Below, piece by piece: positions 3,555 to 32,355 of a stretch of DNA of 41,430 nucleotides. Made by a program: the position numbers and the translations under genes. Numbering within the stretch: position 1 is the stretch's first letter; every line of letters starts with the position of its first letter. A model generated the notes under the pieces. It searched no databases, was not told the origin of the DNA, and saw only the letters and a program-made list of their open reading frames with translations. The DNA comes from Candidatus Dormiibacterota bacterium (GTDB lineage: Bacteria > Chloroflexota > Dormibacteria > Aeolococcales > Bog-877): positions 1-41,430 of the forward strand of contig DAHUZI010000019.1 of the NCBI GenBank assembly GCA_027306595.1, written 5' to 3'.

Positions 3555-5165
3555 GTGACCCTGACCGCCCGCCGACTCCTCACCCTGGCCGCCGTGGTGG
3601 CGGTTATCCTCGGAGGCACGAGCGCTGGGCTGGCGCTCGCCGCGACCCGGACGATCCCGCCTCCCCTCCGCGTGCGACCGATGGCCCACCGCCTCGCCGC
3701 GCTCGCGCAGCCAGGGCGGGTCGCGGTGGCGCCCCGGGCGCTCTCCGGCGGGGAGCTGCCGCGCGACTGGCAAGACCACGGGACGTGGTGGCCGGCGATC
3801 GGCCAGCTGGGGACGCAGACGGCCCAGGTGGCGCTGCACCTCGGCCCCGTCGCCGGCTGGCTCCCGTGCCAGTACGGGCCGACCGGGGTCTCTGTCGTTG
3901 GCCGGCGGATGACGTACCGGTGCGCCGCGCGGCCGGGCTCGGCGGCAGGGGCGATCACCCTGGTCGCCCCGCTCGTCCAAACCGCCACCGGCTGGTGGGA
4001 GCACGCGGCCACGGACTCCCAGGCGGACCGGGCGACGTTTGCCGTCTTCCGGCGAGCGCGGCTCACCCGGGCGTCCAACGGGCGGCCGTGGTGGGTGACG
4101 CCCAACCGCGTCCTGGTCCGCATCGAACCGCCGCCGGAAACCCCCACGCTCGGACTCCGGCCCGGCTCCCAGCGGGTGCCGGCCGGCCACCCCGCGGGGC
4201 TGACCGTCACCGGCGCCCACTGGCCGGCCGGTGCCTACGCCGTGCTGTGGGACATGACGGACAACGTCGACACTACGCCAACGCCCGGGTCCTGGTGCGC
4301 GACGCCCGACTGCCAGTGGATGGTGCCGGCCTCTCCCCCAGGGACGTACGAGTTCGCCGTGTATCTCCACGCCCGCTCGGGGGCCCGGATCGCCAGTCTG
4401 CCGTCCACCGTCACGGTCACCTGGGTGGCGTCGAAGCCGGCACCGGCGCCGCCCCCGGCCGCTACCCCCACGCCACTGCCGACGCCTGTAGCGACCCCGA
4501 CAGTGACCCCGACGCCGCCTCCGCCATCATCGACGTTCGCCTACTCACCGAACTGGTCCGGCTACGTCGTGGGGAACGGCCCGTACACGGGCGCCACGGG
4601 AACGTTCGATGTTCCCAACTTGTACGCATCCTCAACCCAGGCGTGGACCGCCGAGTGGGTTGGCATCGACGGCGCGGCCTCCTCGGACTCCTCTTTGATC
4701 CAGACGGGTGTGACCGAGATCTACGACCCGAGCACCAACCTCGTGAACTTCCAGGCGTGGTGGGAGATCCTCCCCGCACCGTCGACCTCGATCAACATGG
4801 CACTGTCGCCCGGGAACGCGATGACGGCCACCGTCGACCAAGTGAGCGCTGGGATCTGGGCTCTCACCTTGACGAACGACACAACCGGTGCGGCCTTCAC
4901 GACCGAGCAGTCCTACACGGCACCGCTGTCCTCCGCCGAGTGGATCGTCGAGGCGCCAACCAATGGGGCGACTCACCAAATCGACCCTCTTGGCGACTAC
5001 ACCCCCGACGTGACCTTCACCAATGACCGGTTCAACGGGGTCCAGGCGACCTTGCAGGAGGAGATCATGGTGCAGAATGGCGCTCAAGTCTCCACTCCCT
5101 CGGACCTGTCGGCCTCCGGCAGCTTCAGTGTCGCCTACGGCAGCACCGCCCCGCCGGTTCCATAG
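3555..5165 (+). CDS. secreted G1 (eqolisin) glutamic peptidase A
   Basis: 536 aa extracellular protease. A signal peptide occupies roughly 1-29 (RRLLTLAAVVAVILGG core). An N-terminal domain at about 85-190 has paired cysteines (GWLPC, YRCAARPGSAAGAITLVAPL). An Ig-like segment at about 195-295 has a WC..PDC pair. A Pro/Thr-rich linker follows, and the C-terminal eqolisin domain starts near 325 (NWSGYVVGNGPYTGATGTF). The catalytic dyad of fungal eqolisins (Gln53/Glu136) corresponds to Gln383 in SLIQTG and Glu466 in AEWIVEAP; WVGIDG and WWEILP are also conserved. The GTG at 3555 follows GAGGAG by eight bases. It appears intact although it lies in a decayed mobile element. Acid-pH activity is expected from the family, not shown. 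Confidence 0.92.
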   Translation: MTLTARRLLTLAAVVAVILGGTSAGLALAATRTIPPPLRVRPMAHRLAALAQPGRVAVAPRALSGGELPRDWQDHGTWWPAIGQLGTQTAQVALHLGPVAGWLPCQYGPTGVSVVGRRMTYRCAARPGSAAGAITLVAPLVQTATGWWEHAATDSQADRATFAVFRRARLTRASNGRPWWVTPNRVLVRIEPPPETPTLGLRPGSQRVPAGHPAGLTVTGAHWPAGAYAVLWDMTDNVDTTPTPGSWCATPDCQWMVPASPPGTYEFAVYLHARSGARIASLPSTVTVTWVASKPAPAPPPAATPTPLPTPVATPTVTPTPPPPSSTFAYSPNWSGYVVGNGPYTGATGTFDVPNLYASSTQAWTAEWVGIDGAASSDSSLIQTGVTEIYDPSTNLVNFQAWWEILPAPSTSINMALSPGNAMTATVDQVSAGIWALTLTNDTTGAAFTTEQSYTAPLSSAEWIVEAPTNGATHQIDPLGDYTPDVTFTNDRFNGVQATLQEEIMVQNGAQVSTPSDLSASGSFSVAYGSTAPPVP

Positions 5166-10621: not shown

Positions 10622-12250
10622 GTGACCCTGACCGTCCGCCGACTCCTCGCCCTGGCCGCGGTGACGGCGGTGATCCTCGGCGGCACGAGTGCTGGGCTCG
10701 CACTCGCCGCGATCCGGACGATCCCGACTCCGCTCCGCCCGCCGCTGACGGCCCACCGCCTCACCGCACTCACGCAGCGGAGTCGGGTGGCGGAGGCCCC
10801 TCGGGCCCTCCCTGACGCGGAGTTGCCGCGCGACTGGCGGGACCACGGCTCGTGGTCGCCCGCGATCAGCCATCGGGGAGCCGCGACCACCTCCCTGGCC
10901 CTGTATCTCGGCCCCACGGCGGGCTGGCTACCCTGCACCTACGCCCCGACCGGCGTGTCGGTGACCGGGCGACCGATGACCTACCGGTGCGCCCCGCGCC
11001 CGGGTTCGGCGGCCGGGGCGATCACGCTGGTGGCGCCGCTGGTGCACAGGACCACCGGATGGTGGGAGCAGGCGGCGACCAACTCGACCAGGGACGCGGA
11101 CACATACGAGGCGTTCCGTGTAGCCACACTCACGCGCGCATCGAACGGGCGCCCGTGGTACGTGACGACCCGGCCCCAGCTCGTGCGCCTCGAGCCCCCC
11201 CCTCCGTCACCGTCGATGGCACTGAGCCTCGGACTCCGGCCGGGCTCCCAGCGGGTGCCGGCCGGCCACCCGGCGGGGCTGACCGTCACGGGCTCCGGCT
11301 GGCCGTCTGGGGCCTATGCGGAGCTCTGGGACCTGACGGACAACGTCAACACGACCCCGACGGTCAGCGACTGGTGCACGGCCCCGAACTGCCAGTGGAT
11401 GGTGCCGGCACACCGGTCGGGGGCTTACGAGTTCACCGTGTACCTCCACGCCCGCTCGGGGGCCCGGATCGCCGGTCTGTCAGCAGCCGTCACGGTTACC
11501 TGGGTGGCGTCGAGTCCGGCACCGACGCCGTCCCCGGCTTCGACCCCTACCCGGACGCCACTGCCCACGGCGGTAGCGACCCCCACGCCGGCGCCACCAC
11601 CACCATCGTCGGCGGTCGCGTCCACGCCGATCTGGTCCGGCTACGTCGTGGGGAACGGCCCGTACACGGCCGCCACCGGAACGTTCAACGTGCCTCGCCT
11701 CTACGGCGGGCCAACCGAGACGCAGGTGGCCGAGTGGGTCGGCGTCGACGGATGGAACCAGCAGTCCTTGATACAGGCCGGGATCGACGAAGTCTATGAC
11801 CCCAACGTCAGCACGACGCAGTTCCGCATCTTCGCCTGGTGGGAGGTACTGCCGGCGTATGGGACCATGCAGCCGATCGCAATGGCGATCTCCGCCGGGA
11901 ACTCCATCACGGCGACCGTGTCACAGGTCGCGCCCGGGGCTTGGGACCTGAGCGTCACCGACAACACCACGGGGACGAGCTTCACCACAGAACAGGCGTA
12001 CAGCGGCCAGGGAGTGTCCGCCGAGTGGATCGTGGAAGCGCCGACCGCGGAACCGGCCGGGACCGTCGACACGCTCGCCGAGTTCACACCGGCCGTGACG
12101 TTCACCAACGATCGCTTCAATGGAATCCAAACCTCGCTGACCGACGTCGTGATGGTGCAGAACGGCATCCAAGTCTCGACTCCCTCGATCCTGTCGGCAT
12201 CCGGCAGCTTCACGGTCGCATACGGCAGCAGCTCGCCGCCGGCCCCATAG
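10622..12250 (+). CDS. secreted G1 (eqolisin) glutamic peptidase B
   Basis: 542 aa paralogue of eqolisin A with the same plan: signal peptide (RRLLALAAVTAVILGG core), N-terminal domain with GWLPC and YRCAPRPGSAAG, Ig-like segment with a WC..PNC pair, Pro/Thr linker near 305-340, then the eqolisin domain (IWSGYVVGNGPYTAATGTF). Gln385 (SLIQAG) and Glu472 (AEWIVEAP) form the expected catalytic pair. The GTG at 10622 follows AGGAGAG by seven bases. It lies outside attR, so it is either the chromosomal homologue or cargo of a second, tandem element. Substitutions relative to A are scattered and the frame is intact, suggesting that both copies are maintained. Confidence 0.92.
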   Translation: MTLTVRRLLALAAVTAVILGGTSAGLALAAIRTIPTPLRPPLTAHRLTALTQRSRVAEAPRALPDAELPRDWRDHGSWSPAISHRGAATTSLALYLGPTAGWLPCTYAPTGVSVTGRPMTYRCAPRPGSAAGAITLVAPLVHRTTGWWEQAATNSTRDADTYEAFRVATLTRASNGRPWYVTTRPQLVRLEPPPPSPSMALSLGLRPGSQRVPAGHPAGLTVTGSGWPSGAYAELWDLTDNVNTTPTVSDWCTAPNCQWMVPAHRSGAYEFTVYLHARSGARIAGLSAAVTVTWVASSPAPTPSPASTPTRTPLPTAVATPTPAPPPPSSAVASTPIWSGYVVGNGPYTAATGTFNVPRLYGGPTETQVAEWVGVDGWNQQSLIQAGIDEVYDPNVSTTQFRIFAWWEVLPAYGTMQPIAMAISAGNSITATVSQVAPGAWDLSVTDNTTGTSFTTEQAYSGQGVSAEWIVEAPTAEPAGTVDTLAEFTPAVTFTNDRFNGIQTSLTDVVMVQNGIQVSTPSILSASGSFTVAYGSSSPPAP

Positions 12251-14219: not shown

Positions 14220-15128
14220 TCACGGCCCGGCCTCGCCGACCGCGAGCAGGGCGGCCAGATTGGCGCCAGGATGGACCTGCACCTCGAGGCGGCCGTCGAG
14301 AGCGCTCACGAGGACGGTGACCGCCAGGCCCCGGCCGGCGCGGCGACTGGCGCCGGTCGCGATCACGCCCACCGTGAGCGCCCCGGGCCGGTACCCGATC
14401 GCGAACCGGCCGTCCCAGTCGCGCACCGCGACCAGATCGCCCAATCGCAGGTGATCGAGGCCGGCCGCCGTCAGCGCCGACGGAGATGAGGTCTGGATCT
14501 CCAAGGAGGTGGTCGCGGCCAGACGGCCGGCGCCCATCCCGACCAGGTGGGGCGGGCAGACCGCCACGACACCAACCTGCAGCCGCCCGCCCGTGACCCG
14601 GGGGGCCCACGCCGCCCACAGGCGGGGACTCAGGCGGTGGCACGCCACCGATGGCGCATCCCGCACGGCGAGCCCAACCCCGACAGCGCGGACGACGACC
14701 CGATCCTCTGGGCCCAGGCGCTCGCTGACCTCCGGCGGGAAGTCGCAGAGGACGTGGGTGAACGCCTGGAACTCCTCGTGCTTGCCGGTCACCACCCCGA
14801 TCGCCCCGTCCACCGCCCCGCCCTGGATCTCCACGCGGTTGCCGACGCAGGCCTGGAGGCTGAGGTCGGCGTTGGCGGCGGGATCGGGATGGACGATGCT
14901 GACCGCCGGCTCCACCTGCTCCCCGGCCCACCCCAGCGCGGGCATGCCCACCCGGACCGCGGGCGCGATCCCCCCAATCCCGACCCCGACGAACGGGGTT
15001 CCGTCACGGTCGACGAGGTACGGGTCGCCCAGCAGCCGAACCGGCGCCACCCGTCCGGTCAGAGTGGTCCCGATCAGGCGGCCGCCGTTGGTCGCCGCGG
15101 CCCCTCCGGCGGCGGGCCCGGCCGTCAC
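14220..15128 (-). CDS. DUF4438 family protein (copy b)
   Basis: 302 aa. The family is defined by structural-genomics proteins such as Thermotoga TM1086, and its biochemical role is not established to my knowledge. Seen here: a GVGIGGIAPAVRVGMPALGW block, EQVEPAVSIVHPD, NRVEIQGGAVDGAIGVVTGK and VTVLVSALDGRLEV. The GTG start at 15128 overlaps the stop of copy a as GTGA, so translation is probably coupled. It is the last gene of the minus-strand run SBP1 - Gfo1 - SDR - DUF4438a - DUF4438b. The two copies align along their length but are clearly diverged, suggesting two subunits of one complex rather than redundancy. Confidence 0.8.
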   Translation of the reverse strand: MTAGPAAGGAAATNGGRLIGTTLTGRVAPVRLLGDPYLVDRDGTPFVGVGIGGIAPAVRVGMPALGWAGEQVEPAVSIVHPDPAANADLSLQACVGNRVEIQGGAVDGAIGVVTGKHEEFQAFTHVLCDFPPEVSERLGPEDRVVVRAVGVGLAVRDAPSVACHRLSPRLWAAWAPRVTGGRLQVGVVAVCPPHLVGMGAGRLAATTSLEIQTSSPSALTAAGLDHLRLGDLVAVRDWDGRFAIGYRPGALTVGVIATGASRRAGRGLAVTVLVSALDGRLEVQVHPGANLAALLAVGEAGP

Positions 15129-16000
15129 GGGCGCACCCCGCAGGCGGTGGAGATGGAGAGGCCGGCCTCCACCCACCATCCCAGCCGGTCGGCGGGTCCG
15201 GTGAGGACCGTCACCACGCCCACGCCGTGCCCGGGAACCGGACCGAGCGCATGCACGACGACCCCGACCGAGGCCCAGCCCCGCGCGTATCCGCGGCCAA
15301 ACCGGTGGTCCTGGTCGACCATCGCCACCAGATCGCCGATCCGAAGCTCGGCCAGGCGGTGGGCACCCCGAAGGACCGGGTCGTGGAGCATGACGTCGCA
15401 GTTGGCCCATTCCGAGCTCATGCCCAATCCCGCCCCCATGAGCTCCGGCGGGACCACCCCGACGACCCCGACCTCGAGCCGGCCCGGACCGGAGCGGTGC
15501 GACAGCCCCGCAAGCAGCCCCGGGCTGCAGTTGCGCACCGCGATATCTGGATGGTCGAGCAGGCGCAGCCCCTGCCCCTCGGCCTCCACGACCACCGAGT
15601 CTCCGGGCACCAGCTGCTCCAGGGCCTCGGGCTCGAAGTCGCAGAGCACGTAGGCGTGCTTGCCGATCACGGTTCCGGTCGCGCCCGCGGCCCGGCCCGA
15701 CGCCACCCGCACCGGGTTCCCGAGGCAGGCCAGGACCTGGACCGCCAGGTGCTGAGCGCTGTCCCGGCTCCCGAGCGAGGCGCCCGGCTCGCCATGGTCC
15801 GCCGCCCACCCGAAGACCGGACTGCCCAGGCGCAGATTGCGGCAGACACCGGCCATGCCCGGCAGCGCCACCGGGCGATCCCACCAGTCGACCGCGAGGT
15901 GCCCGCGGTGCACCGGATGGACGATCTCAGCCGCGCAGCGCACCCGCACGAGGCGATCGCGATTGGTGCGGAGCTCGTCGGGGGGCTCAGTTCGCGGCAT
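15125..16000 (-). CDS. DUF4438 family protein (copy a)
   Basis: 291 aa from ATG 16000. It has the same block order as copy b: PGMAGVCRNLRLGSPVFGWA, ADHGEPGASLGSRD, NPVRVASGRAAGATGTVIGK, HAYVLCDFEPEALEQLVPGD and a final VTVLTGPADRLGWWVEAGL. The GWA.DH.EPG motif is characteristic of the family. It starts 92 bp after the SDR stop and overlaps copy b by four bases. No signal peptide, so cytoplasmic. Function unknown; the context implies processing of whatever SBP1 binds. Confidence 0.8.
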   Translation of the reverse strand: MPRTEPPDELRTNRDRLVRVRCAAEIVHPVHRGHLAVDWWDRPVALPGMAGVCRNLRLGSPVFGWAADHGEPGASLGSRDSAQHLAVQVLACLGNPVRVASGRAAGATGTVIGKHAYVLCDFEPEALEQLVPGDSVVVEAEGQGLRLLDHPDIAVRNCSPGLLAGLSHRSGPGRLEVGVVGVVPPELMGAGLGMSSEWANCDVMLHDPVLRGAHRLAELRIGDLVAMVDQDHRFGRGYARGWASVGVVVHALGPVPGHGVGVVTVLTGPADRLGWWVEAGLSISTACGVRP

Positions 16001-16092: not shown

Positions 16093-16902
16093 TCACCCCG
16101 GGCTCAGCCGGAACCGGCCGGCGAGCGAACCGCCGTCGACATCCAGAACCGCGCCGGAGATGTGCTGCGCCTTCGGCGAGCAGAGAAAGCAGACCGCATC
16201 GGCGATGTGGTTCGGCCGACCGGCCTCGCCCAGGGGAATGCCCGCCACCAGCCTCCGCCGAAGGGCTGGCGATGCACGGTCGGGGTGGGCGTCGCTCCAC
16301 CCCCTCACATCGATGTATCCGGGCGCCACCACATTGACCCGGATCCGGTGCGGCCCCAGCTCCATGGCGTGGGTGCGGCTCAAGGATTCGATCGCCGCCT
16401 TGGAGGCGGCATAGGCGCCGCCACCGGGACGGGGGCTGCGGGCGGAGCCCGATGAGATGTTGACGATCACGCCATCGGTGGGCGGCGTCGCCAGCCGATG
16501 CCGGACGAACGCGCGGCTCAGCAGGAAGCAGCCGGTGACGTTGACCTCCCACACCCGCTTCCAGGCCTCGAGGGGCATGTCCACAAGCCCGCCGTCCGGG
16601 TACTCCGCCGCGTCGTTGACCAGGATGTCGACGCGGCCGAAGCGCTCCACCCCGGCGCCGACTGCCCGGTCGGCGAGCGCTGGGTCCGAGACGTCGCCGA
16701 CCACCACAAGCACGGCCGCGCGCCCGGCGAAGTGGGTGGGCTCGGCGACATCGACCGCCACCACCTGGGCGCCCGCCGCCAGCAGGCCCTCGGCGATCGC
16801 GCGCCCCAGGCCGTTGGCGGCCCCGGTCACCAGGGCGGTCGAGCCCCCGAGGTCGGCCGTGGCCGCCCCTCGCCTGCCACCGACTCGCGCCCTAGGGGGC
16901 AA
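16093..16902 (-). CDS. SDR-family NAD(P)-dependent oxidoreductase
   Basis: 269 aa short-chain dehydrogenase/reductase. The Rossmann motif TGAANGLG is at 26-33, the active-site Ser lies in VNISSGSARS near 152, and Tyr165/Lys169 are in YAASK. The cofactor-adjacent NNAG motif is replaced by NDAAE (97-101). The C-terminal DVDGG block is present. The start is TTG 16902, the only start in frame before the Rossmann motif; it overlaps the end of the Gfo/Idh/MocA gene by 11 bases. Probably oxidises or reduces a hydroxyl of a sugar-like substrate together with that enzyme; substrate unknown. Confidence 0.88.
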   Translation of the reverse strand: MPPRARVGGRRGAATADLGGSTALVTGAANGLGRAIAEGLLAAGAQVVAVDVAEPTHFAGRAAVLVVVGDVSDPALADRAVGAGVERFGRVDILVNDAAEYPDGGLVDMPLEAWKRVWEVNVTGCFLLSRAFVRHRLATPPTDGVIVNISSGSARSPRPGGGAYAASKAAIESLSRTHAMELGPHRIRVNVVAPGYIDVRGWSDAHPDRASPALRRRLVAGIPLGEAGRPNHIADAVCFLCSPKAQHISGAVLDVDGGSLAGRFRLSPG

Positions 16903-18010
16903 GGGGCAGATCCACCCAGCCTCGGAGCCGAACCGACCGCCCCACCGCGTTGATCACCTCCTGGACCACCGCCGCCTGGCCGAAGTCGGCCTGGCCGGTC
17001 GTCACCGCGCCCAGAACCTCGTCGAGCATCCCCGACACCAGATTGGCATAGCAGAGGGTGGGCCAGCTCTCGCTGGCGCTGCCGCCCGGCGGGTAGTACT
17101 CGCGGGGGATCGCGATCGGGCGGAACTCGACCTGGTCCGGGGTGGCCCCCATGAGGGTCTCGCAGATGCCGAGTTCCTCCACGAGACGCACGATGAGGGC
17201 GCCGGCGCTCCCGTAGATGCGCGCCTCCACGCCCGGGTAGTTGCCCACCGTGACGAAGCTGCTCTGGATCGACAGCAACGCCCCGCCCCGGAACTCCCCG
17301 AGGAAGATGTCCCCGTCATCGACCTTGATCCGGGTCAGCGCCCCGCTGCCGCGGGCGATCCGACTGGGGACGAAGTTGCGCATCGTCCCCACCACGCTGG
17401 CCAGGCTGTCGCCCACGAACCAGTGGGCGATGTCGATGATCGGCGCGCCATACCCCTCGAGCGAGCCGACCCAGAGCTCGTCAGGGTCCTGGGTGGGCGG
17501 GGGCGGACGGAATGGGGTGGCTGGGTCGAGCCACTGGGAGTTCTGCTCGTACCCGTTGAAGATGTACGGGGTGCCGATCCGCCCGGCTGCGATCAGGTCG
17601 CGTGCGTAGCGGACGGCTGGGCTGTAGCGGAAGGTGAAGCCGACCCTCGTCACCAGGCCCCGATCCCGGGCGAGCCCGGCGACCCGACGTGTCTCCTGGT
17701 AATCGTGCGCCACCGGCTTCTCGCTGAGGACATGCTTGCCGGCCTCGAGCGCGGCCGACGTGATCGCGAGATGACTGTCGTCGTCGGTGACCACGTCGAC
17801 CAGGTCGACGCTCGGCGACGAGACCAGATCGTGGTAGTCGCTGACGTGGGCGGGGATCGCGAAGTCGCGGGCGACCTGCTCCGCCCGCACCGAATCGCAG
17901 TCGCAGAGCATGGTCACCCGGCAGCGGGGGTCGCGCGCCCAGCCTGGCAGGTGGGCCATGGTCGCCCAGCGGCCACCCCCCACCACCCCGATCCGGATCG
18001 GGGTGCTCAC
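16892..18010 (-). CDS. Gfo/Idh/MocA-family oxidoreductase (1)
   Basis: 372 aa. The N-terminal NAD(P)-binding motif GVVGGGRW is at 8-15, the family EKP motif at 97-99 (LSEKPVAHD), and an alpha/beta C-terminal domain carries the substrate site (FTFRYSPAVRYARDL, EQNSQWLDP, SLEGYGAPIIDIAHWFVGD). Members oxidise or isomerise cyclitols, sugars or sugar acids. GTG 18010 is used. It lies 118 bp after SBP1 and overlaps the SDR gene. It is a close paralogue of the gene at 20325-21497; both share the unusual NSQWLDP insert region, so the two probably act on related substrates. Confidence 0.9.
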   Translation of the reverse strand: MSTPIRIGVVGGGRWATMAHLPGWARDPRCRVTMLCDCDSVRAEQVARDFAIPAHVSDYHDLVSSPSVDLVDVVTDDDSHLAITSAALEAGKHVLSEKPVAHDYQETRRVAGLARDRGLVTRVGFTFRYSPAVRYARDLIAAGRIGTPYIFNGYEQNSQWLDPATPFRPPPPTQDPDELWVGSLEGYGAPIIDIAHWFVGDSLASVVGTMRNFVPSRIARGSGALTRIKVDDGDIFLGEFRGGALLSIQSSFVTVGNYPGVEARIYGSAGALIVRLVEELGICETLMGATPDQVEFRPIAIPREYYPPGGSASESWPTLCYANLVSGMLDEVLGAVTTGQADFGQAAVVQEVINAVGRSVRLRGWVDLPLAP

Positions 18011-18128: not shown

Positions 18129-19967
18129 TCACCCCGCAGACCCGGCGTACGCCCACTTCTGGGGGAAGATCGCCAGCAGCGGATTGGCCGGGAACACGCC
18201 CCGGAGCGTGCTGCGCGCCTCGATCAGCTCGAAGTCGCCGTTGGGAATCCAGAGCATGGGCAGCTGGGTGGCCACATAGTTCTCCCAGGGGATGACGCTC
18301 CCGCCAGCGGCCAGGCCCTGGTTGTCGAGTCGCACCTCGGTGCGATCGCAGTAGCTGCCGTAGTTGAGCAGCGCTCCGCATTCGAAGTAGCCACCCCCCA
18401 AGGGGTAGTAGGGAAGCGTGTAGACCGCCCCGCCCCAATCGATGAGCTGCCACTTGCAGGCGGCCTGCGTGGAGGTGCAGGGGATGGCGAGCTGAAAGGC
18501 GAAGACGTTGGTCGACAGGGCGATCTGGATTCCGAGCTGGGAGGCGGCCGACTTCAGGGTCTCCATCTGAATCGTCTGGAAGATCTGTCCGCTGTTGTAG
18601 ACGAGGTTGAAGCTGAGGGCCTCCCCGCGCCGGATGCCGGCGCCGCAGCGCCCGGCCCCGCGGCCGGGGAAGGTGCAGGTCGTGGCGCCGTTGGGGTGGA
18701 CGGCCCACCCATGCTGCTTCAGGAGGGAGCGGGCCGCGGACTGGCTGTAGGGATAGGCGAAGTCCCGCTCCGCGGGGCCGATCAGGGACGGCGGGCCGTT
18801 GACCACGGGACCGTGGGTGGGCACCCCGTAGCCGCCCAGCGACTTCTGGATCCACTCGGGCTGATCGATGAGCCGCTGCAATGCCTGGCGGATGTAGAGC
18901 TGGGCAAAGAGCGGGCCCACCTGGGGATTGTGGAAGTTGATCAGGAGGCTGTTGAAGCCATACACGGGCCACTGGCCGAATCTGAAGCCCTGGCGGGCCA
19001 AAGCCGGGCGCGTGGAGATGTCCTCGGGCGGAATGTAGCCGACGTCGAGCTGCCCGGCGCGCAGGGCGTCGTACTCGGCCGTGGTGCTGGTGAAGGGCTC
19101 CTCGATGAACTGGGACAGATGGGGCTTGTCGGGTCCGCTGTAGCGTCGGTTCGGAACGAACACGACCTGGCCGGTCACGCTATGGCTCTGCATCGTCCAG
19201 GGGCCGTCGACCACCTTCCAGAGGGGGTTGCTCCCGTACGTGCCGAGCTCCTTCGATTGGTTGGAGAGGAATTGGTACACGGCGACCGCGCCCGCCCGGG
19301 TGGTGTCGTAATTGCCGACCGCGCCCCGCATGCCCGTCCGGTCCCATGCGTGCTGAGGGATCGGCGTGATTTGGCTCAGCTCGTTGTCGGTGTAGTAGGT
19401 GGGGCTGAAGCTGCGGGTGAGGATGAAGGTCAGCCGGCGGCTGGAATCCACCCTGACACTCTTGACGTTGTCCGGGAAGGCCCCGGGGACGTAGGGAGCC
19501 CAATTGCGCTTCTCGGCCCGCAGCAGGTTCATCCAGAAGACGACGTCGCGCGCGGTGAGGGGCGTGCCGTCCGACCACAGGTAGGGCTTGAGGCGGATCA
19601 CCACCTGGGAGTCGTGGTCCTGATAGAGGGGCGGGAGGGCGAGGCTGATCCGGTAGTTGACGGCCGGCGAGGCGCCGCTGCCGAACTGGTAGAGCGGCGG
19701 AATCATGAGGTACTCGAACTCGCTCTGGTACTGGACGGTGAAGTCGGTGCCGGGGTAGAGCGGGAAGATCCACTTGGGAGCGCCACCCGCGGACTCCGCC
19801 CAGCGCACGACCCCGCCGGACGCCGCCTGGGCTGGCACCATGGCCAGGCCGCCGAGCGATGCGGCGAGCAGAGCCAGGGCGCCCACGCTCACAGCCGCAC
19901 GGCCTCTGATCTTCGGCCGAGCCCCCGCTCGCCTCCGTGCCCCGCAAAGCATCCAGGCTGACATCAT
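18129..19967 (-). CDS. ABC transporter substrate-binding protein, family 5 (SBP1)
   Basis: 612 aa extracytoplasmic binding protein of the peptide/oligosaccharide/nickel class. The signal peptide (VSVGALALLAASLGGLAM core) ends near AQAASGG with no lipobox cysteine. Family features include KWIFPLYPGTDF, YLWSDGTPLTARDVVFWMNL, ELSQITPIPQHAWD and LWKVVDGPW. ATG 19967 has GGAGGG seven bases upstream. Four to six cysteines in the second half could form disulfides. First gene of the minus-strand operon. It strongly resembles SBP2 and SBP3. No permease or ATPase gene is nearby, so its transporter is elsewhere or it acts as a free binding protein. Confidence 0.92.
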   Translation of the reverse strand: MMSAWMLCGARRRAGARPKIRGRAAVSVGALALLAASLGGLAMVPAQAASGGVVRWAESAGGAPKWIFPLYPGTDFTVQYQSEFEYLMIPPLYQFGSGASPAVNYRISLALPPLYQDHDSQVVIRLKPYLWSDGTPLTARDVVFWMNLLRAEKRNWAPYVPGAFPDNVKSVRVDSSRRLTFILTRSFSPTYYTDNELSQITPIPQHAWDRTGMRGAVGNYDTTRAGAVAVYQFLSNQSKELGTYGSNPLWKVVDGPWTMQSHSVTGQVVFVPNRRYSGPDKPHLSQFIEEPFTSTTAEYDALRAGQLDVGYIPPEDISTRPALARQGFRFGQWPVYGFNSLLINFHNPQVGPLFAQLYIRQALQRLIDQPEWIQKSLGGYGVPTHGPVVNGPPSLIGPAERDFAYPYSQSAARSLLKQHGWAVHPNGATTCTFPGRGAGRCGAGIRRGEALSFNLVYNSGQIFQTIQMETLKSAASQLGIQIALSTNVFAFQLAIPCTSTQAACKWQLIDWGGAVYTLPYYPLGGGYFECGALLNYGSYCDRTEVRLDNQGLAAGGSVIPWENYVATQLPMLWIPNGDFELIEARSTLRGVFPANPLLAIFPQKWAYAGSAG

Positions 19968-20324: not shown

Positions 20325-21497
20325 TCAGCCGCCGGCCGCGGAGCCCAGCCCGACCCAGGCGTGGCGGCGGTGCGAGGCCTCGACGGCATTGATCACCTCC
20401 TGCACCACCGCGCTCTGGGCGAAGTCCCCCTCCGCCGCCCGGGACGGATCGCGGATCTCCTCCACGAAGCTCGCCACCAGATTCCCGTAGCAGGTGGAGG
20501 GCCAGTCGTCCCCGGGCTGAGATCCGGGCGGGAAGCATGAAGGTGGGATCGGCTGGGGCTGGAACTCCACCGACCCGCTGGACGCCGCCCACAGTCGCTG
20601 CCACGTCCCCCGCTCCTCCACCAGCCGGCAGACCACCGCGCCCCGGTCACCGTAGAGGCGGGCCTCGATGCCCGGATAGTTGCCCACCGTCACGTAGCTG
20701 CTCTGGATCGTGGCGAGCGCCCCACCGCCCATCCGCGCGATGAACACATCGCCATCGTCGATGTTGATCGGCTCGCGCTCGCGATCGAGGTTGGTGCGTC
20801 GCCGCCGGGGCACAAAGTTCTGCAAGGCCCCGACCACCTCCTGGATCGGCCGTCCCGTCATCAGCAGGGCGAGATCGATGATGGGCGCCCCGTACCCCTC
20901 CAGCGAGGAGACGGTGATCGCCTCGGGTCCCGGCGCCCATCCGCCCACCAGGTCCTCCTCGGGCGGCGCGGTAAAGAGGCGCTTGTCCGCGGGCACGTCG
21001 GGGTCGAGCCACTGGCTGTTCTGCTCGAAGCCGTTGAAGATGAACGGGGTGCCGCAGACCCCCTCCCTCACCAGTTCGAGCATGCGCCGCATGGCCGGCG
21101 CGAACCGGAAGGTGAGCCCCACCTTCGTGCGCAGCCCGGGCGCTTGGGCCAGCCGGTGGGCGCGCCACACGGCCGCGGCGTCGTGGGCCACCGGCTTCTC
21201 GCACAGGCAGTGCTTCCCCGCCTCCAGAGCCGCGAAGACCAGGGCATCGTGCTCATCGCGGGTGCAGACGTCGATGATGGCGATGTCGTCGCGGGCGATC
21301 ACCTCCCCGGCCTCGACGCTGAACTCGGCGACCCCGAACTCGGCGGCCCGCCGCCGAGCCAGGGCCTCGTCGCGGTCGCAGAGCACCGCCAGCTCGACGC
21401 CCGGACATCGGGCGAATCCCGGAAGGTGTGCGCTCGCGGCCCACCGGCCAGCCCCGATCACGGCCGCTCGCAGGGGACGGTCGACCCGTGCCGGCAT
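20325..21497 (-). CDS. Gfo/Idh/MocA-family oxidoreductase (2)
   Basis: 390 aa from ATG 21497 (MPARVDRPLR), preceded by GAGG at seven bases; ATG 21509 is possible. The NAD(P) motif AVIGAGRW is at 12-19 and EKP at 100-102 (CEKPVAHDAAAVWRAH). It shares with copy 1 GLTFRFAPAMRRM, FIFNGFEQNSQWLDP, SSLEGYGAPIIDLA, INIDDGDVFIARM and the AVVQEVINAV ending. It is transcribed divergently from SBP2 across a 392-bp gap. Either it belongs to the SBP2 regulon, mirroring the SBP1/Gfo1 pair, or it forms the first gene of a run with SBP1 downstream; the 357-bp gap argues against the second. Confidence 0.9.
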   Translation of the reverse strand: MPARVDRPLRAAVIGAGRWAASAHLPGFARCPGVELAVLCDRDEALARRRAAEFGVAEFSVEAGEVIARDDIAIIDVCTRDEHDALVFAALEAGKHCLCEKPVAHDAAAVWRAHRLAQAPGLRTKVGLTFRFAPAMRRMLELVREGVCGTPFIFNGFEQNSQWLDPDVPADKRLFTAPPEEDLVGGWAPGPEAITVSSLEGYGAPIIDLALLMTGRPIQEVVGALQNFVPRRRRTNLDREREPINIDDGDVFIARMGGGALATIQSSYVTVGNYPGIEARLYGDRGAVVCRLVEERGTWQRLWAASSGSVEFQPQPIPPSCFPPGSQPGDDWPSTCYGNLVASFVEEIRDPSRAAEGDFAQSAVVQEVINAVEASHRRHAWVGLGSAAGG

Positions 21498-21889
21498 CGG
21501 CTGCCTCATCGAAGGTGCGGGACCGGCCCCGGCCCCCGGTTGCAGCGCTCGCACCCTGCATGGAGGTGCGCCCGCCCGCGCCCCGAGCCGACGGGGCGTC
21601 GCTTCGACCCCGGGCCGGGCCTGGCGGCAGGGACCATCTGTTCGCTCACGGCTGGTGCGACTCCCCGTCCTGGCCGCGCGGCCACCCGGCGCGTCCCGGA
21701 AGCCCGCGGCTCTCACACCCTAAGCCCCGGGAGCGGACCGCCGCTATGGTGCCGCGCCCCGCCCACCGGCGCCGGGGCTGGCCGTCGCCCCTCGATCGAG
21801 GCCACGGCCGCCGCTCCGGACCCACCCCCTTGTGGCCCTCGCCCCGGCCCCGATACGATTCCGCCGTTCTGGGTTCGGGAGGAGCGGGG
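21498..21889. other. divergent intergenic region Gfo2 / SBP2
   Basis: No gene supported. Apart from the SBP2 promoter I see no clear operator palindrome. Confidence 0.5.
21830..21859 (+). promoter_or_regulatory. promoter of SBP2
   Basis: TTGTGG (21830-21835), 18-bp spacer, TACGAT (21854-21859), then about 30 nt to the ATG with GGAGGAG close before it. Confidence 0.5.
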
Positions 21890-23761
21890 ATGCTCGGTCG
21901 ACTGCGTGCGCGTCTTGGCGGCCCGGGGGTGCGGCGCGCCGCGGCATTCCGGACACTTGCCGTGCCGGCCGTCCTGCTGGTCGGCGTCGCCGCGGTGGTC
22001 GGGCCCAGCGGCCTCGCCTCTCGTGCGGCAGTGCAAAGGGCCAGCGCCGGCGGCACCGTCCGCTGGGCACTCCCGCCCGGCGAGGTGCCCAACTGGATCT
22101 TCCCCATCACCTCGACCGCCGACTTCAGCAACGTGAACACGCTCCAGTTCCAGTACCTCATGTTCCGACCCCTCTACTGGTTCGGCGGCAACGGGACCCC
22201 GTACTTCAATGCGGCCCGCAGCTTGGCCGAGCCCCCGGTCTTCTCCGACGGCAGCCGGACCGTCACCATCACCCTCAAGCGCTGGCACTGGTCCGACGGC
22301 ATGCCGGTGACCACCCGTGACGTCGAGTTCTGGCTTCGGCTCCTGATCGCCAACAAGGCGAACTGGGGCGTCTACGTGCCGGGGGGCTGGCCCGACCTCA
22401 TCGCCCGGATGCGGTTCATGACCGCGTCAACCTTCCAGCTGACCTTCACCCACCCGGTCAGCCACTACTGGGCCCTCTACAACGAGCTGAGCCAGATCGT
22501 GCCGCTGCCGCAGCAGAGCTGGGACCGGACCACGGCCAGCGGCCCAGTCGGGAACTACGACCGCACCACCAGCGGGGCCCGGGCCGTCTTCCGCTTCCTC
22601 GCCGGCCAATCCAAGGACCTCACCACCTACGACACCAATCCCCTGTGGCAGGTGGTCGACGGCCCCTGGCGGATCGAGCCGGGCACCGGCTACTCGCCGG
22701 CCACCGGCTTCACGGTCCTGGTCCCGAACCGCAACTACCCGGGGGCCAAGCCCCACCTCGCCCGATTCGAGGAGGTGCCGTTCACGAGCAGCACCGCGGA
22801 GTTCGACTCCCTGCGCGCGGGACAGCTCGACTACGGCTACCTGCCGATCACAGACCTGAACCAGAAGGCGTACTTCGCGCACCAGGGCTACCGCTTCGCC
22901 CCCTGGAACGCGTGGGGGATCCGCTACGTCGCCATCAACTTCACCAACCCCAAGGACGGCCCCCTCTTCCGCCAGCTGTATCTCCGTCAGGCGATGCAGC
23001 GGCTGATCGATCAGCCCCAGTACATCGGCCAGATCTATCACGGCCACGCCGCGCCCGAGTACGGCCCGGTGCCGCTGATCCCCGCCAATAAGTTCGTGAG
23101 CTCGGTCGAGCGCCACAACCCCTATCCGTACAGCGTCGCCGCCGCCCGCACCCTCCTCACCAGCCACGGGTGGGCCGTCCACCCCAACGGCACCAGCGTC
23201 TGCCTGCACGGCGGCGCGGGCCCGGGCCGATGCGGCCCCGGGGTCGCGACCGGCCGCCAGCTCGCCTTCTCCCTCATCTGGACACCGGGAACCCAGGTGG
23301 AGGCCGACACGGTCCAGGCGATGCGGTCGGCGTTCACCCGGGTCGGGCTCGACCTCACCCTGCGGTCGAGCCCGAACGCTGGCGCGCTCGCCACCCCCTG
23401 CGAACCCAAGACCGGCTACGGCTGCCAGTGGGACCTCATCGACTGGAGCGCCGGCACCTACAGCGTCACCTACTCCCCCGACTACTTCCCGACCGGAGGC
23501 GAGGACACCGCGTGCGGGGCCGCCTTCAACGTCGGCGACTACTGCAGCCGACAGATGGATGCCCTCATCGCGGCGACCCACGTCGACAGCGGCCTGGGCC
23601 CCTTCTACCGCTACGAGAACGCCGCCGCCCTCCAGCTGCCCGTGCTCTGGCTCCCCATCGCCCCGGCCCAGCTCTCCGAGGTCAGCACCCGCATTCACGG
23701 GGCCCTGCCCCAGGACCCCAACCTCAACATCTACCCGCAGGAGTGGACGCTGGCCGGTTGA
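21890..23761 (+). CDS. ABC transporter substrate-binding protein, family 5 (SBP2)
   Basis: 623 aa. ATG 21890 has GGAGGAG five bases upstream; the longer frame is GC-driven. The signal peptide core is LAVPAVLLVGVAAVVG, without a lipobox. Characteristic blocks are VPNWIFPITSTADFSNVNT, WHWSDGMPVTTRDVEFWLRL, YNELSQIVPLPQQSWD and NPLWQVVDGPW. Several cysteines in the C-terminal half (CLHG, RCGPG, TPCEPKTGYGC) match those of SBP1. A perfect 10-bp hairpin follows the stop. Same class as SBP1 and SBP3; ligand unknown. Confidence 0.92.
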   Translation: MLGRLRARLGGPGVRRAAAFRTLAVPAVLLVGVAAVVGPSGLASRAAVQRASAGGTVRWALPPGEVPNWIFPITSTADFSNVNTLQFQYLMFRPLYWFGGNGTPYFNAARSLAEPPVFSDGSRTVTITLKRWHWSDGMPVTTRDVEFWLRLLIANKANWGVYVPGGWPDLIARMRFMTASTFQLTFTHPVSHYWALYNELSQIVPLPQQSWDRTTASGPVGNYDRTTSGARAVFRFLAGQSKDLTTYDTNPLWQVVDGPWRIEPGTGYSPATGFTVLVPNRNYPGAKPHLARFEEVPFTSSTAEFDSLRAGQLDYGYLPITDLNQKAYFAHQGYRFAPWNAWGIRYVAINFTNPKDGPLFRQLYLRQAMQRLIDQPQYIGQIYHGHAAPEYGPVPLIPANKFVSSVERHNPYPYSVAAARTLLTSHGWAVHPNGTSVCLHGGAGPGRCGPGVATGRQLAFSLIWTPGTQVEADTVQAMRSAFTRVGLDLTLRSSPNAGALATPCEPKTGYGCQWDLIDWSAGTYSVTYSPDYFPTGGEDTACGAAFNVGDYCSRQMDALIAATHVDSGLGPFYRYENAAALQLPVLWLPIAPAQLSEVSTRIHGALPQDPNLNIYPQEWTLAG

Positions 23762-25701: not shown

Positions 25702-25752
25702 ATGGGCACCCGACGCAGCAGCGGCTCCGGTCGACCGCTCCTCGGACGATGA
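25702..25752 (+). CDS. possible 16-aa leader peptide overlapping the SIS gene
   Basis: ATG 25702 with GGGAGG about seven bases upstream encodes MGTRRSSGSGRPLLGR and stops at a TGA that overlaps the ATG of the SIS gene (ATGA, 25749-25752). The SIS gene has no ribosome site of its own, so translation may be coupled through this short ORF. Peptide-level function is doubtful. Confidence 0.35.
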   Translation: MGTRRSSGSGRPLLGR

Positions 25753-26906
25753 CGGCGCCCTCCGCCCCCCTGCCGGACGGCTTCCCTGAGCTCAGGCCCG
25801 GCCCTCCGTGGGTCACCGAGGAGATGGTGGCCGCGGAGCCCGACCTCGTCGAGCCGCTCTGGCGCGCCGGCGACGAGCCGGCGCGCGCGCTCGCCGCCGC
25901 CGTCGACCGCGCCCTGGTCGCCGGGGAGCCGGTCTGCGTGGTCGGCTGCGGCACCAGCGAGCACGGGGCGATGGCGATCGCGGCCCTCCTGCGGGATGCC
26001 GTCCGCTGGGCGCCCGGCGCGTGGCTGATCGCCTCCCGGCAGGCCTTCGAGGCAGCGCTCGACCCCTGGCCAGGGGTCTGCCTGGCCGTCTCCCACGAGG
26101 CGGGCACCCGGGCGACGATCGCCGCTCTCGCCGCGGCCCGGGCGCGCGGCGCCGCAACCGGGCTCGTCACCGCGACCCCCGCCGGGCCCGCCGCCGCCCA
26201 CGCCGACCACGTGCTCGCGACCCCGGTCGTCGACCGCGCCTGGTGCCACACGGTCGGCTACCTCTCCCCCCTTCTGGCGGGCGCCCTGCTCGCCTCCCGG
26301 GTCGGGGGCGTCGCCATCGACCCCGCGCGCCTGGCCGGCCACCTCGCCCGCAGCTCGGCCCAGGCGGCGGCGCAGGCGGGTTCGGTGGCGGAGGCGCTCT
26401 GCGGCTGCGCCCTCCTCGAGTGCAGCGGGAGCGGGGTCGACGCGATCACGGCCCGGGAGGTGGCGCTCAAGATCGAGGAGGGGATGCGGCGGCCGGCCGT
26501 GGGTCGGGACCTGGAGACGGTGCTCCACGGCCACCTCGTCGCCCGGGACCGGTCGACGGGGCTGGTGGTGTGCGCGACCGAGCCGCGCTGCGCCGACGCG
26601 CGCCGGGCCCGGGCGGCCCAGGAGCTGGAGGCGACGACCCGGGTGGGCGCCAGCGCCGCCGCCATCGTCGACGAGCCGACCGCGGCCGCCTGGGCCCCGG
26701 CGGCGACCCCGGCCGGCCGGATCGTGGTCCCCAGCGGCGACGACCTGCCGGCCCTCACCGGCGCCCTCACCGGCTCGGCGATGGCGCTCCAGCGGCTGAC
26801 CCTCGCGCTGGTGGCCGCGGCGGGCACCAACCCGGACCTGATCCGGCGCGAGGAGGCCCCGTACCGCGAGGCCGCCGAGCTGGTGGAGGCGCACTTCCCG
26901 GACTGA
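25749..26906 (+). CDS. SIS-domain sugar isomerase-like protein
   Basis: 385 aa with two SIS folds, related to the isomerase half of GlmS and to AgaS/FrlB-type enzymes that handle phosphorylated amino or keto sugars. Motifs: VCVVGCGTSEHGAMAIAALL near 60-79 (sugar-phosphate loop), CLAVSHEAGTRATIAAL near 112-128, a second domain with ECSGSGVDAITAREVALKIE near 222-241 and the GTNPDLIRREEAPYREAAEL end. No glutaminase domain, so not GlmS itself. First of a probable SIS - PP2C - ROK run. Substrate unknown. Confidence 0.82.
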   Translation: MTAPSAPLPDGFPELRPGPPWVTEEMVAAEPDLVEPLWRAGDEPARALAAAVDRALVAGEPVCVVGCGTSEHGAMAIAALLRDAVRWAPGAWLIASRQAFEAALDPWPGVCLAVSHEAGTRATIAALAAARARGAATGLVTATPAGPAAAHADHVLATPVVDRAWCHTVGYLSPLLAGALLASRVGGVAIDPARLAGHLARSSAQAAAQAGSVAEALCGCALLECSGSGVDAITAREVALKIEEGMRRPAVGRDLETVLHGHLVARDRSTGLVVCATEPRCADARRARAAQELEATTRVGASAAAIVDEPTAAAWAPAATPAGRIVVPSGDDLPALTGALTGSAMALQRLTLALVAAAGTNPDLIRREEAPYREAAELVEAHFPD

Positions 26907-26993
26907 TCGCCTGGGGCTCGTCTCCGCCCCGGCTGCGGAGCCGAGGGCAAGTGCCGGCGCCCGCCGCCGCGCCGCCGGACGCGGCCGATCGCG

Positions 26994-26999
26994 TAGCCT
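26994..26999 (+). promoter_or_regulatory. -10 box, possible leaderless start of the PP2C gene
   Basis: TAGCCT six bases before the GTG at 27006. The -35 region is pure GC and unconvincing. Confidence 0.35.
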
Positions 27000-27005
27000 C
27001 GCGGC

Positions 27006-27752
27006 GTGACGAGCTTCGAGCCCCGGCGCTCCGGCGACCCCCACGCCCGCGGCCTCGTGGTGGCCAGCGGGTCGGGTCAGCTCGCCATCCACGGGCAGGA
27101 CCGCCTCCTGGTCGTCGACGACCTCGGCCTCTACGGGGTGTTCGACGGGGTCGGGGAGTTCCGGGAGAGCGGGCGCGCCGCCGCCTGCGCAGCAGGGTCG
27201 GTGCGCGCACGCTGTTCGGCTCCGGCCGGCGTCCACGCCGCGCAGGCGCTGCCGGCGGTGGTCGAGGGGCTCCAGGACGCCCACGCCGCCATCATCGCCC
27301 GCCGTTGGGGTGCCACCACCGCGGTCGTCGTCCGTCTCGCCGGCGACGGGGTCGCGGTCGCGGCGGTCGGGGACTCCCGCCTCTATGTCGCCGCGGGTGG
27401 GGGCCGGCTCGTGCAGTGGACGACCGACGAGGGGGTCGGCCACCGTGTCGACAACTGGCTCGGAGAAAGCTGGCCACTGCCCCGGGCCCGGATCGCGCAG
27501 GCAGGGGTCATCGCCCTCGATCTCCCTTTGACCCTCGTCCTCGTGACCGACGGGGTCACCGGCGACCTGCCCGACGAGTGGCTCAGCCCCGCCGACCTCG
27601 AGGCTGCCCTGGACGGGCGTGGCGAGCAGGCAGCGGCGGAGCAGCTGATCGCGATCGCCCGCAAGCACGACGACCGCACGGCGGTTGTCGTCCGAATCCG
27701 CCGTGCCGAGGAGCGAGAGGCCCAACCGCGGACGGCGCCGGGGCCCGGATGA
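27006..27752 (+). CDS. PP2C-family serine/threonine phosphatase
   Basis: 248 aa metal-dependent protein phosphatase. Ordered motifs: GQDRLLVVDDLGLYGVFDGV (about 30-49; metal Asp in FDGVG), GATTAVVV, AVGDSRLYV, VLVTDGVTGDLPDEW and KHDDRTAVVVRIRR, which supply the acidic metal ligands. There is no transmembrane or sensor domain, so it is a stand-alone cytoplasmic phosphatase. GTG 27006. Its stop overlaps the ATGATG of the fructokinase gene, indicating coupled expression. No kinase partner is in the window. Confidence 0.88.
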   Translation: MTSFEPRRSGDPHARGLVVASGSGQLAIHGQDRLLVVDDLGLYGVFDGVGEFRESGRAAACAAGSVRARCSAPAGVHAAQALPAVVEGLQDAHAAIIARRWGATTAVVVRLAGDGVAVAAVGDSRLYVAAGGGRLVQWTTDEGVGHRVDNWLGESWPLPRARIAQAGVIALDLPLTLVLVTDGVTGDLPDEWLSPADLEAALDGRGEQAAAEQLIAIARKHDDRTAVVVRIRRAEEREAQPRTAPGPG

Positions 27753-28756
27753 TGGCCGGGTCGCGGGGGGCGGCGACCAGCCGACCCGGGGCGGGCGCGG
27801 CACCCCCGCCCCGGCTGACGTTCGCGGGCCTCGAGGCCGGCGGGACCAAGTTCGTCTGCCTGATCGGCTCGGGGCCGGACGACATCGTCGCCGACCACCG
27901 GGTCGACACCACCGACCCCGCCCACACCCTGGCGGCCTGCCTCGCCTTCTTCCGGGCCCACGCCACGGGGCCGCGGGCACCGATCGGGCTGGGCATCGCC
28001 GCCTTCGGCCCCCTCGAGCTCCGCCCCAACCAGCCCCGCTATGGCTCGATCACAGCGACCCCCAAGCCGCTCTGGTCGAACATCGACCTCGTCGGCCCCC
28101 TGGCGCGCGGGCTCGGCCTGCCGGTCGCCCTCGAGACCGACGTGAACGCGGCGGCGATCGCCGAGGGCCGGTGGGGGGCGGCCCGGGGCCTGCGCACGTT
28201 CCTGTACGTCACTGTCGGCACCGGCATCGGCGGCGGCAGCATCGCCAACGGGAGCGTCGTCCGCGGCCTGATCCACCCGGAGATGGGGCACGTCTTCGTG
28301 CCCCGCCATCCCGACGACCCGTACCGCGGCGGGTGCCGCTTCCACCGTGACTGCCTCGAGGGGATGGCGAGCGGCGCCGCCCTCCAGGATCGGTTCGGCC
28401 GGAGGGGCGAGGCCCTGACCGGCACGGACCTGGAGCGGGCGCGCACGCTGATCGCCTTCTACCTCGCGGCCGGGCTGCGCTCGTTCACCTACGTCGCCGT
28501 CCCCGAGCGCATCGTCCTCGGCGGCGGGGTGGCGGCGATGCCAGGGCTCCTGCCCCGGCTCCGCGCCGAGCTCGTCCGCCAGCTGGCGGGGTACCCGGGG
28601 CTGCCCGAGCACGCCCAACCCGCCTTCGTGCGCCGGGCCGCGCTCGGAGGCCGGGCCGGTGCCCTGGGGGCGCTGGCCCTCGGCGAGCAGGCGGCCCAGG
28701 CGGCTGGCGCCACCTGCCCACGCCACCTCCCCCACGCTCGCGGCCGACCGAGTTAG
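27749..28756 (+). CDS. ROK-family fructokinase-like sugar kinase
   Basis: 335 aa. The ATP-phosphate loop is GLEAGGTKFV (about 27-36), the catalytic ETDVNAAAIAEGRWG follows, then the second phosphate motif VTVGTGIGGGSI and a zinc site (GHVFVPRHPDD with GGCRFHRDCLEGMASG) typical of the bacterial ROK fructokinase subgroup. This subgroup phosphorylates fructose or mannose, so fructokinase is the best guess. It starts at ATG 27749 or 27752, overlapping the PP2C stop. Together with the SIS protein it suggests sugar entry to glycolysis. Confidence 0.88.
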   Translation: MMAGSRGAATSRPGAGAAPPPRLTFAGLEAGGTKFVCLIGSGPDDIVADHRVDTTDPAHTLAACLAFFRAHATGPRAPIGLGIAAFGPLELRPNQPRYGSITATPKPLWSNIDLVGPLARGLGLPVALETDVNAAAIAEGRWGAARGLRTFLYVTVGTGIGGGSIANGSVVRGLIHPEMGHVFVPRHPDDPYRGGCRFHRDCLEGMASGAALQDRFGRRGEALTGTDLERARTLIAFYLAAGLRSFTYVAVPERIVLGGGVAAMPGLLPRLRAELVRQLAGYPGLPEHAQPAFVRRAALGGRAGALGALALGEQAAQAAGATCPRHLPHARGRPS

Positions 28757-28801
28757 CCCCCGGTCTGGAGACGCCCGGCCGGGACGCCCCCGGAAGGTGG
28801 G

Positions 28802-28830
28802 TTGACCAGCAGATATATCCAGGTCATACT
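28802..28830 (+). promoter_or_regulatory. promoter of the GntR-nitrilase-SBP3-rraA operon
   Basis: TTGACC (28802-28807), 17-bp spacer, CATACT (28825-28830), then six bases to the GTG at 28837, so the mRNA is probably leaderless. The spacer contains the palindrome GATATATC, flanked by GACC and GGTC, in an otherwise GC-rich region. It is a likely binding site for the operon's own regulator. Confidence 0.7.
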
Positions 28831-28836
28831 CCCAAT

Positions 28837-29514
28837 GTGCCAGCCGCTGCGACGCGCCCGAACCGGCTCAGCGACCACGCCTATCTCCAGCTCCGCGATC
28901 GCATCGTCCGGCTCGAGCTCCCCCCGGGAGCGCTGATCGATGAACGGGAGACGATGGCGGAGCTGGGGGTCGGGCGGACCCCGCTGCGCGAGGCGATCCA
29001 GCGCCTCGCGCATGACGGTCTGGTGGATGTCGTTCCCCGTCGGGGACACTTCATCGCCCCGGTGAGCCTCTCGGATCTCACCCATGTGTTCGAACTGCGC
29101 CAAGCCGTCGAGGGTCTCTCCGCGCGCCTGGCGGCGCAGCGGGCGACCGAGGCTGACTGCGCCTCCCTGGAGGCACTCCTGGTGGACGCACGGGAGCACC
29201 TGGGCGGGCAGGAGATTGACCGTCATCTTGAGATCGACCGCCAGTTTCACTCGCGCGTGGCGGCGACGGCGGGCAACCGGTACCTCCGAGAGGACGTTGA
29301 CCGCTTGTTTGCCCTGAGCGTCCGAATCCAGCGCCTGTCCGGGGTCTCGCTGACGACGATCGACCATGAACTCACGAACTACGAGGGCGTGGTCGCGGCC
29401 ATCCGCGACGGGCGCCCGGACGAAGCGGAACGATGGATGCGGCAGCACCTCGACCCGACCGACCCCTGGCTGCTTCCAGCTCCGCGCGCAGCCGGGAGCC
29501 CATCGCGCCCATGA
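28837..29514 (+). CDS. GntR-family (FCD) transcriptional regulator
   Basis: 225 aa. The winged helix is at about 10-75 (HAYLQLRDRIVRLELPPGAL, ELGVGRTPLREAIQRLAHDG, VVPRRGHFIAPV). The FCD ligand domain follows, with the metal/ligand-binding DRQFHSRVAATAGN and a final HELTNYEGVVAAIRDG helix. Such regulators usually repress until a carboxylate-type metabolite binds. It is first in its operon and probably autoregulates through the spacer palindrome in its promoter. The stop overlaps the next start as ATGA. The N-terminal GTG at 28837 follows the -10 by six bases. Confidence 0.9.
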   Translation: MPAAATRPNRLSDHAYLQLRDRIVRLELPPGALIDERETMAELGVGRTPLREAIQRLAHDGLVDVVPRRGHFIAPVSLSDLTHVFELRQAVEGLSARLAAQRATEADCASLEALLVDAREHLGGQEIDRHLEIDRQFHSRVAATAGNRYLREDVDRLFALSVRIQRLSGVSLTTIDHELTNYEGVVAAIRDGRPDEAERWMRQHLDPTDPWLLPAPRAAGSPSRP

Positions 29515-30395: not shown

Positions 30396-30429
30396 GCTCC
30401 CACGAGCCACAACGAAAGGAGGGGATCAG

Positions 30430-32283: not shown

Positions 32284-32289
32284 CTAGCG

Positions 32290-32324: not shown

Positions 32325-32355
32325 TCAACCGCCAGGAGCGTCGACAGGAGGGCCG

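Follow-up and report, generated by a model that had tools for sequence, protein, structure and literature searches.

The present analysis asks why a bacterial operon carries two diverged genes of the DUF4438 family side by side, and what their products may do together. The window, i.e. the whole stretch of 41,430 nucleotides of a Candidatus Dormiibacterota genome that was analysed, contains copy A (15125..16000, minus strand, ATG start, 291 aa) and copy B (14220..15128, minus strand, GTG start, 302 aa), and these are exactly the two DUF4438 genes of that genome, which is 75.8% complete. Each protein has both domains of the family in order, PF14505 and then PF20999, with scores (A, 125.9 and 105.5 bits; B, 118.8 and 91.0 bits) far above the curated Pfam cut-offs of 24.9 and 27. 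The copies are 36% identical, and the stop of A and the start of B share the GTGA at 15125..15128 on the minus strand, an arrangement that suggests translational coupling; the description of two diverged, overlapping copies given by an earlier, sequence-only reading of this DNA was thus confirmed for full-length proteins. The same reading had placed a binding protein, a Gfo/Idh/MocA enzyme and an SDR upstream, and the order on the minus strand is indeed a solute-binding protein of an ABC transporter (18129..19967), a Gfo/Idh/MocA oxidoreductase (16892..18010; PF01408, PF22725), an SDR (16093..16902; PF13561, 1.2e-55), A and B, but the binding protein belongs to SBP_bac_5 (PF00496, 2e-34, the peptide/nickel type) and not to SBP1, i.e. 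family 1. For the Gfo/Idh/MocA protein the nearest NCBIfam model was levoglucosan dehydrogenase, at 107 bits against a cut-off of 650. A second Gfo/Idh/MocA oxidoreductase gene (PF01408) lies at 20325..21530 on the minus strand.

The reading that we prefer, with a probability of roughly 0.57, is that A and B would assemble into a single hetero-oligomeric DUF4438 enzyme, with A as the catalytic subunit and B as a non-catalytic scaffold or activator, that would act in a catabolic pathway with dehydrogenases. In its support, A and B each form one clade and their trees match, the two genes are constantly adjacent, residues were lost asymmetrically, both genes are under purifying selection, and the family fold is predicted for both.

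Some features of the window lie apart from the pair. There are three SBP_bac_5 genes within about 14 kb (18129-19967, minus; 21962-23761, plus; 30436-32283, plus); neither next to them nor elsewhere in the window was an ABC permease gene identified. A plus-strand run at 25749-33036, with SIS domain, PP2C-like, ROK kinase, GntR-FCD regulator, carbon-nitrogen hydrolase, SBP_bac_5 and RraA-like genes, is possibly a second catabolic cluster. Three Peptidase_A4 (eqolisin, PF01828) genes are all on the plus strand (3555-5165, 10622-12250 and 37946-39415), the first two being 66% identical across their whole length.

A single DUF4438 gene is the usual state. When carriers were counted with the PF14505 profile, genomes reached via loci, which had been chosen as gene carriers, were positive in 47/47 cases, 46 with one copy and one with two; a draw centred on Lutispora gave 48 carriers among 299 genomes (47 single, one double) and a draw centred on a Desulfobacteraceae genome gave three among 198, all single. 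A scan with one peptide pattern across 84,980 species, with one genome per species, returned 423 relatives, of which 80 were kept; DUF4438 was called in 77 of these loci, 76 with one gene and one with two, while three loci in which the gene caller reported no such gene (L061, L078, L132) stand outside the locus counts. Record titles from the scan place the family in many deep-branching anaerobes, including Thermotogota, Bacillota, Atribacterota, Bipolaricaulota and WOR-3. Copy A had no match on plasmids, and no viral contig with DUF4438 was confirmed.

The pair is concentrated in one family. Within the window's class 10 of 110 genomes were positive, all of them in the window's family and all with two matches, so that the pair was present in 10/10 carriers among the 18 genomes of that family examined, and a draw of relatives recovered the same ten among 61. 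Two draws from the phylum Chloroflexota gave 17/301 and 23/400 positive genomes, 22 of the latter over the cut-off; the remaining one (G795, 8.6e-4, with one stop) was not counted as a carrier. Combining the class, relatives and phylum draws, the A/B pair was found in 11 genomes and one copy in 13. The 11 comprise the ten of the window's family and one of another class (G108); the pair spans four genera of the family plus one genome of another class. It was never split: among the 11 pairs there was no A without B and no B without A.

Pairing and neighbourhood must accordingly be read as properties of this lineage. The sequence-only reading had held that constant pairing would indicate a heteromeric enzyme or carrier that might act on an imported, oxidised substrate, and had proposed a survey of neighbourhoods for paired copies with Gfo/Idh/MocA, SDR and binding-protein genes, in which DUF4438 genes occurring singly and without such neighbours would count against it; this is what occurred. 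Outside the pair lineage the gene is nearly always single, and in a BLAST comparison (800 genes, 1e-6) none of the 80 single-type loci held a match to the window's GFO, SDR or SBP genes, or to the two 2-hydroxyacid dehydrogenases and the small GFO of the window's relatives, within at most 7 kb, many of the contigs being short. The aminotransferase of the pair loci matched in one of the 80 (L071, 1e-6). The idea of constant pairing with these genes as a family feature was therefore rejected. The neighbours vary even among the pairs, and on these results the function of DUF4438 cannot be derived from pairing.

Among the pairs the most regular neighbour is a D-2-hydroxyacid dehydrogenase gene, directly upstream of A in 10/11; the exception is the window, where the SDR takes that place. 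Two of these dehydrogenases were assigned by PF02826 and the others by likeness, that of G001 being a fragment at a contig end. GFO, SDR and SBP genes occur in some pair loci only. Two subtypes of pair were distinguished. In subtype I (G004, G006 and G108) a class I/II aminotransferase gene (PF00155, in G004) additionally stands in front, and G004 and G006 have an SDR gene behind B. In subtype II, which includes the window, Gfo/Idh/MocA genes flank the pair on both sides in genus g5 and G002; the second Gfo/Idh/MocA of the window has counterparts of 64-67% identity adjoining the pair in these six relatives (five of genus g5, and G002). Genes for relatives of the window's SBPs are found close to the pair in G015, G014 and G001. 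These neighbourhoods suggest that hydroxy acids, keto acids or sugars are oxidised or reduced, without singling out one reaction; with neighbours that change from one pair locus to the next, they constrain the pathway weakly.

Several further observations concern gene context. The pair operon of G108 (L051 2687-9897) also includes an Ldh_2 gene and two genes for aminotransferases; a GntR-like regulator and an Amidohydro_1 gene are oriented divergently to this operon. The window genome's closest relative of the pair-associated 2-hydroxyacid dehydrogenase is on another contig (C4, L152 9269-12076), is 48% identical and adjoins a proline dehydrogenase gene; in L023 a gene judged by eye to be proline-dehydrogenase-like lies about 8 kb from the pair. 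As for the single-type genes, 32/78 have a same-strand gene at most 100 bases upstream. The only frequent one, named by eye like the others, is a VanZ-like gene, directly upstream on the same strand in 14/78, all in one cluster of loci (including L122 3412-4729), and single-copy neighbours gave no general link that could guide to a function. In L042 (3664-9085) a single DUF4438 gene follows genes that by eye resemble heterodisulfide reductase subunits.

In an unrooted phylogeny (74 of 112 proteins, LG+C20+F+G4) a branch with support 100/95 separated the 11 B proteins from all others, and the 11 A proteins likewise grouped together at 89/84. The A and B clades have the same main groups, (G108,(G006,G004)) versus the window with G001, G002 and genus g5, and pairwise distances within A and within B are closely correlated (r 0.98, Mantel p 0.0001, the p value being only indicative for related rows). 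Matching trees could also be explained by linkage alone, and their point is that the pair has persisted. G002 and G006 belong to the same genus and carry different subtypes, and G108 belongs to another class; the pair has therefore probably moved as a unit, or else the subtypes are old.

A heteromer had previously been proposed on condition of constant pairing. The proposal gains support in the window's family, where pairing is constant, the two trees agree and B is degenerate in an asymmetric, conserved way, but constant pairing does not extend elsewhere. What makes a heteromer the likeliest reading is a reason absent from the earlier note, namely that the ionisable residues of the family are retained in one copy and have disappeared from the other. 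The reference for this comparison was 52 DUF4438 copies found by profile alone (40 newly fetched and 12 earlier, including the two tandem copies of G539), in which 13 D/E/H columns reached at least 95% conservation, 12 of them without exception (52/52). All 11 A proteins keep nine of the 13 columns, while all 11 B proteins keep two, and mean retention is 0.84 in A and 0.52 in B. For 37 non-polar columns retention is essentially equal (0.76 in A, 0.77 in B), and the difference between A and B was larger for the D/E/H columns (Mann-Whitney p 0.004, indicative only because the rows are related). Two residues, H69 and D202 in A numbering, are lost in 11/11 B and kept in 11/11 A and in 52/52 single-type copies, and the asymmetry singles them out as residues likely to matter. 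Copy A of the window keeps 11/13, among them D68, H69, E71, H115, D134, D202, D223, H250 and H258, its losses being H117Y and D200N. Copy B of the window keeps 6/13 and does not carry the ionisable set of the single copies, having E70, Q71, S208, E210, S215, T258 and R266 at the equivalents of D68, H69, D200, D202, D207, H250 and H258. Six or seven of the 13 are lost in each of the 11 B proteins. Copy A itself is intact at 13/13 positions in subtype I, with none lost, and has lost two to four in subtype II, H117 and D200 being among the losses in 8/8 and the position of L252 being changed too; an invariant GG.E stretch after H115 is absent from all A.

This result could have been affected by how the sequences were collected or by divergence in general. 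An earlier count on 89 copies had found 9/14 columns kept in A against 1/14 in B, but for 78 of those copies the loci had been retrieved by a peptide pattern in which D68, H69 and E71 are obligatory, with a resulting bias at these three positions, and the count was for that reason repeated on the 52 profile-found copies, with the same answer. Ten of the 52, and the tandem G539 pair, are also within the 89. One locus (L053) was left out of the residue alignment as identical to G070. As a control for divergence, the single copy of G116 has the longest end branch (1.13) and a median identity of 43% to other singles and has lost 1/14 positions, so divergence alone is not the cause of the losses in B; the B protein of G108, which is cut by a contig end (226 aa) and whose absent columns were set aside, is likewise at 43% identity and has lost seven of 11 scorable positions.

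Both A and B are under purifying selection. Among species of genus g5, dN/dS ranges from 0.12 to 0.22 in A and from 0.15 to 0.26 in B; for the window against G001, at high dS, the values are 0.35 and 0.38. No internal stop was present in A or B in the seven pairs of this set. One paralogue thus keeps and the other loses the ionisable set while selection acts on both.

An alternative explanation could be that B is a separate enzyme with a new reaction, A and B catalysing successive steps of the pathway as independent homo-oligomers. Purifying selection on B, its low identity to A and the enzymes encoded by the neighbouring genes would all agree with this, but no conserved D, E, H or K was gained by B in place of those lost. 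The conserved residues specific to B are P, A, F, Q, G, S, V and L, apart from one arginine (R59) that is new relative to the singles yet is shared with all A, and the substitutes for the lost residues differ between subtypes. A second enzyme is therefore unlikely, though it is the best of the alternatives. Less probable again is a role of B as a sensor or carrier that binds a ligand and feeds or regulates A without forming a complex with it. Such a protein could be expected to lose the ionisable set yet retain the fold in full, but a stoichiometric partner is suggested both by the fact that A and B are never separated in the 11 pairs and by their overlap, which is of four bases (ATGA or GTGA) in 8/8 pairs of subtype II and by this regularity is more than chance; in the three pairs of subtype I, B starts 44-68 bases behind A. 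Taken together, selection, the lack of new ionisable residues and the overlap agree better with B as a partner of structural or regulatory kind than with B as a second enzyme or as a copy being lost.

It is also conceivable, at rather long odds, that the active site is shared between subunits, one face coming from A and the other from B, so that losses would be complementary. In subtype II A has lost H117 and D200, and in some cases D229, which is kept in all B, and H69 and D202, together in many cases with H250 and H258, are gone from B; in subtype I, however, A keeps all 13 positions and no complementation is needed, so this form of sharing is not supported there. That the pair is a common tandem duplication serving dosage, or that one copy is heading for loss, was already disfavoured and is very improbable, since fresh tandem copies do exist (G346, G539) but keep all 14 D/E/H positions in both genes, unlike A and B, and since the pair is old, crossing genera and class, and the dN/dS of B is low.

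The predicted structures are consistent with a partnership of two related subunits. AlphaFold2 models had mean pLDDT of 91.9 (A) and 91.3 (B), alignments for the structure work being made from 50 of the 78 loci proteins plus A and B. Both models share over their whole length the two-domain fold of TM1086 of Thermotoga maritima, the solved DUF4438 protein (PDB 3DCL, 3N99), with Z 40.4 over 278 residues and rmsd 1.6 for A and Z 40.8 over 281 residues and rmsd 1.5 for B; sequence matches to 3DCL had E 1.7e-56 (A) and 4.1e-45 (B). The TM1086 crystals contain 5 and 30 chains, and a crystallisation paper (PMC2661377) describes an asymmetric unit of over 1 MDa, which is compatible with an oligomer. 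When A was compared with a copy of the PDB, there was no match beyond TM1086 at E <0.001 (Foldseek), and the fold therefore gives no hint of the reaction. Beyond TM1086 the A and B models matched only the small barrel of F1/V1-ATPase (about 65-84 residues, Z 7.8-9.2), to which no weight was given as a functional clue. In the literature searched, which had few subscription papers, no functional assignment was found for DUF4438, PF14505 or TM1086.

If A and B are subunits of one enzyme, the ancestor would have been a single-copy, probably homo-oligomeric DUF4438 protein of the TM1086 type that was then duplicated. Copy A would have kept most ionisable residues of the presumed active site, while B would have kept the fold, lost these residues and become an inactive scaffold or activator binding to A. 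The gene overlap may favour equal synthesis and co-translational assembly. The enzyme would probably serve catabolism of hydroxy-acid or sugar-like substrates together with the 2-hydroxyacid dehydrogenase, Gfo/Idh/MocA and SDR enzymes. A broader and more tentative proposal, which we would put at somewhat less than an even chance, is that DUF4438 proteins are enzymes with a fold of their own and that in one Chloroflexota lineage a homo-oligomer became an obligate hetero-oligomer, B activating or holding A, which came to serve in a catabolic operon rich in dehydrogenases and to act on a substrate different from that of the single-copy form. In subtype II, A has also changed at H117, D200 and the position of L252. 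The pair has two key implications. First is that A and B can be co-expressed and that their operon offers a pathway context absent around the single-copy form, making the function of DUF4438 directly testable. Secondly, a working and a non-working half of one two-part enzyme would be a concrete lead on a widespread, unstudied protein.

Comparison with known systems bears on several of these points. TM1086 retains most of the ionisable residues (11/14 from the alignment, lacking columns 173, 270 and 316), including the equivalents of H69, D200 and D202, in which it differs from B; its three missing positions imply that not every residue counted is essential. The tandem DUF4438 genes of G346 (Chloroflexi bin.298) and G539 (from the Lutispora-centred draw) are adjacent like A and B, but fall outside the A and B clades and have neighbours other than those of the pair. 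Similar in kind, though of unrelated folds and organisms, are two cases in which the partnership is reported whereas for A and B we infer it. Plant PDX1.2 is a pseudoenzyme regulator of vitamin B6 synthesis (PMC6829848), an active and inactive paralogue pair as proposed here, and trypanosome editing complexes contain paired RNase III proteins of which one only is competent (PMC9508840). In both, as in the A/B pair, a duplicated homologue without catalytic residues is still selected beside an intact copy.
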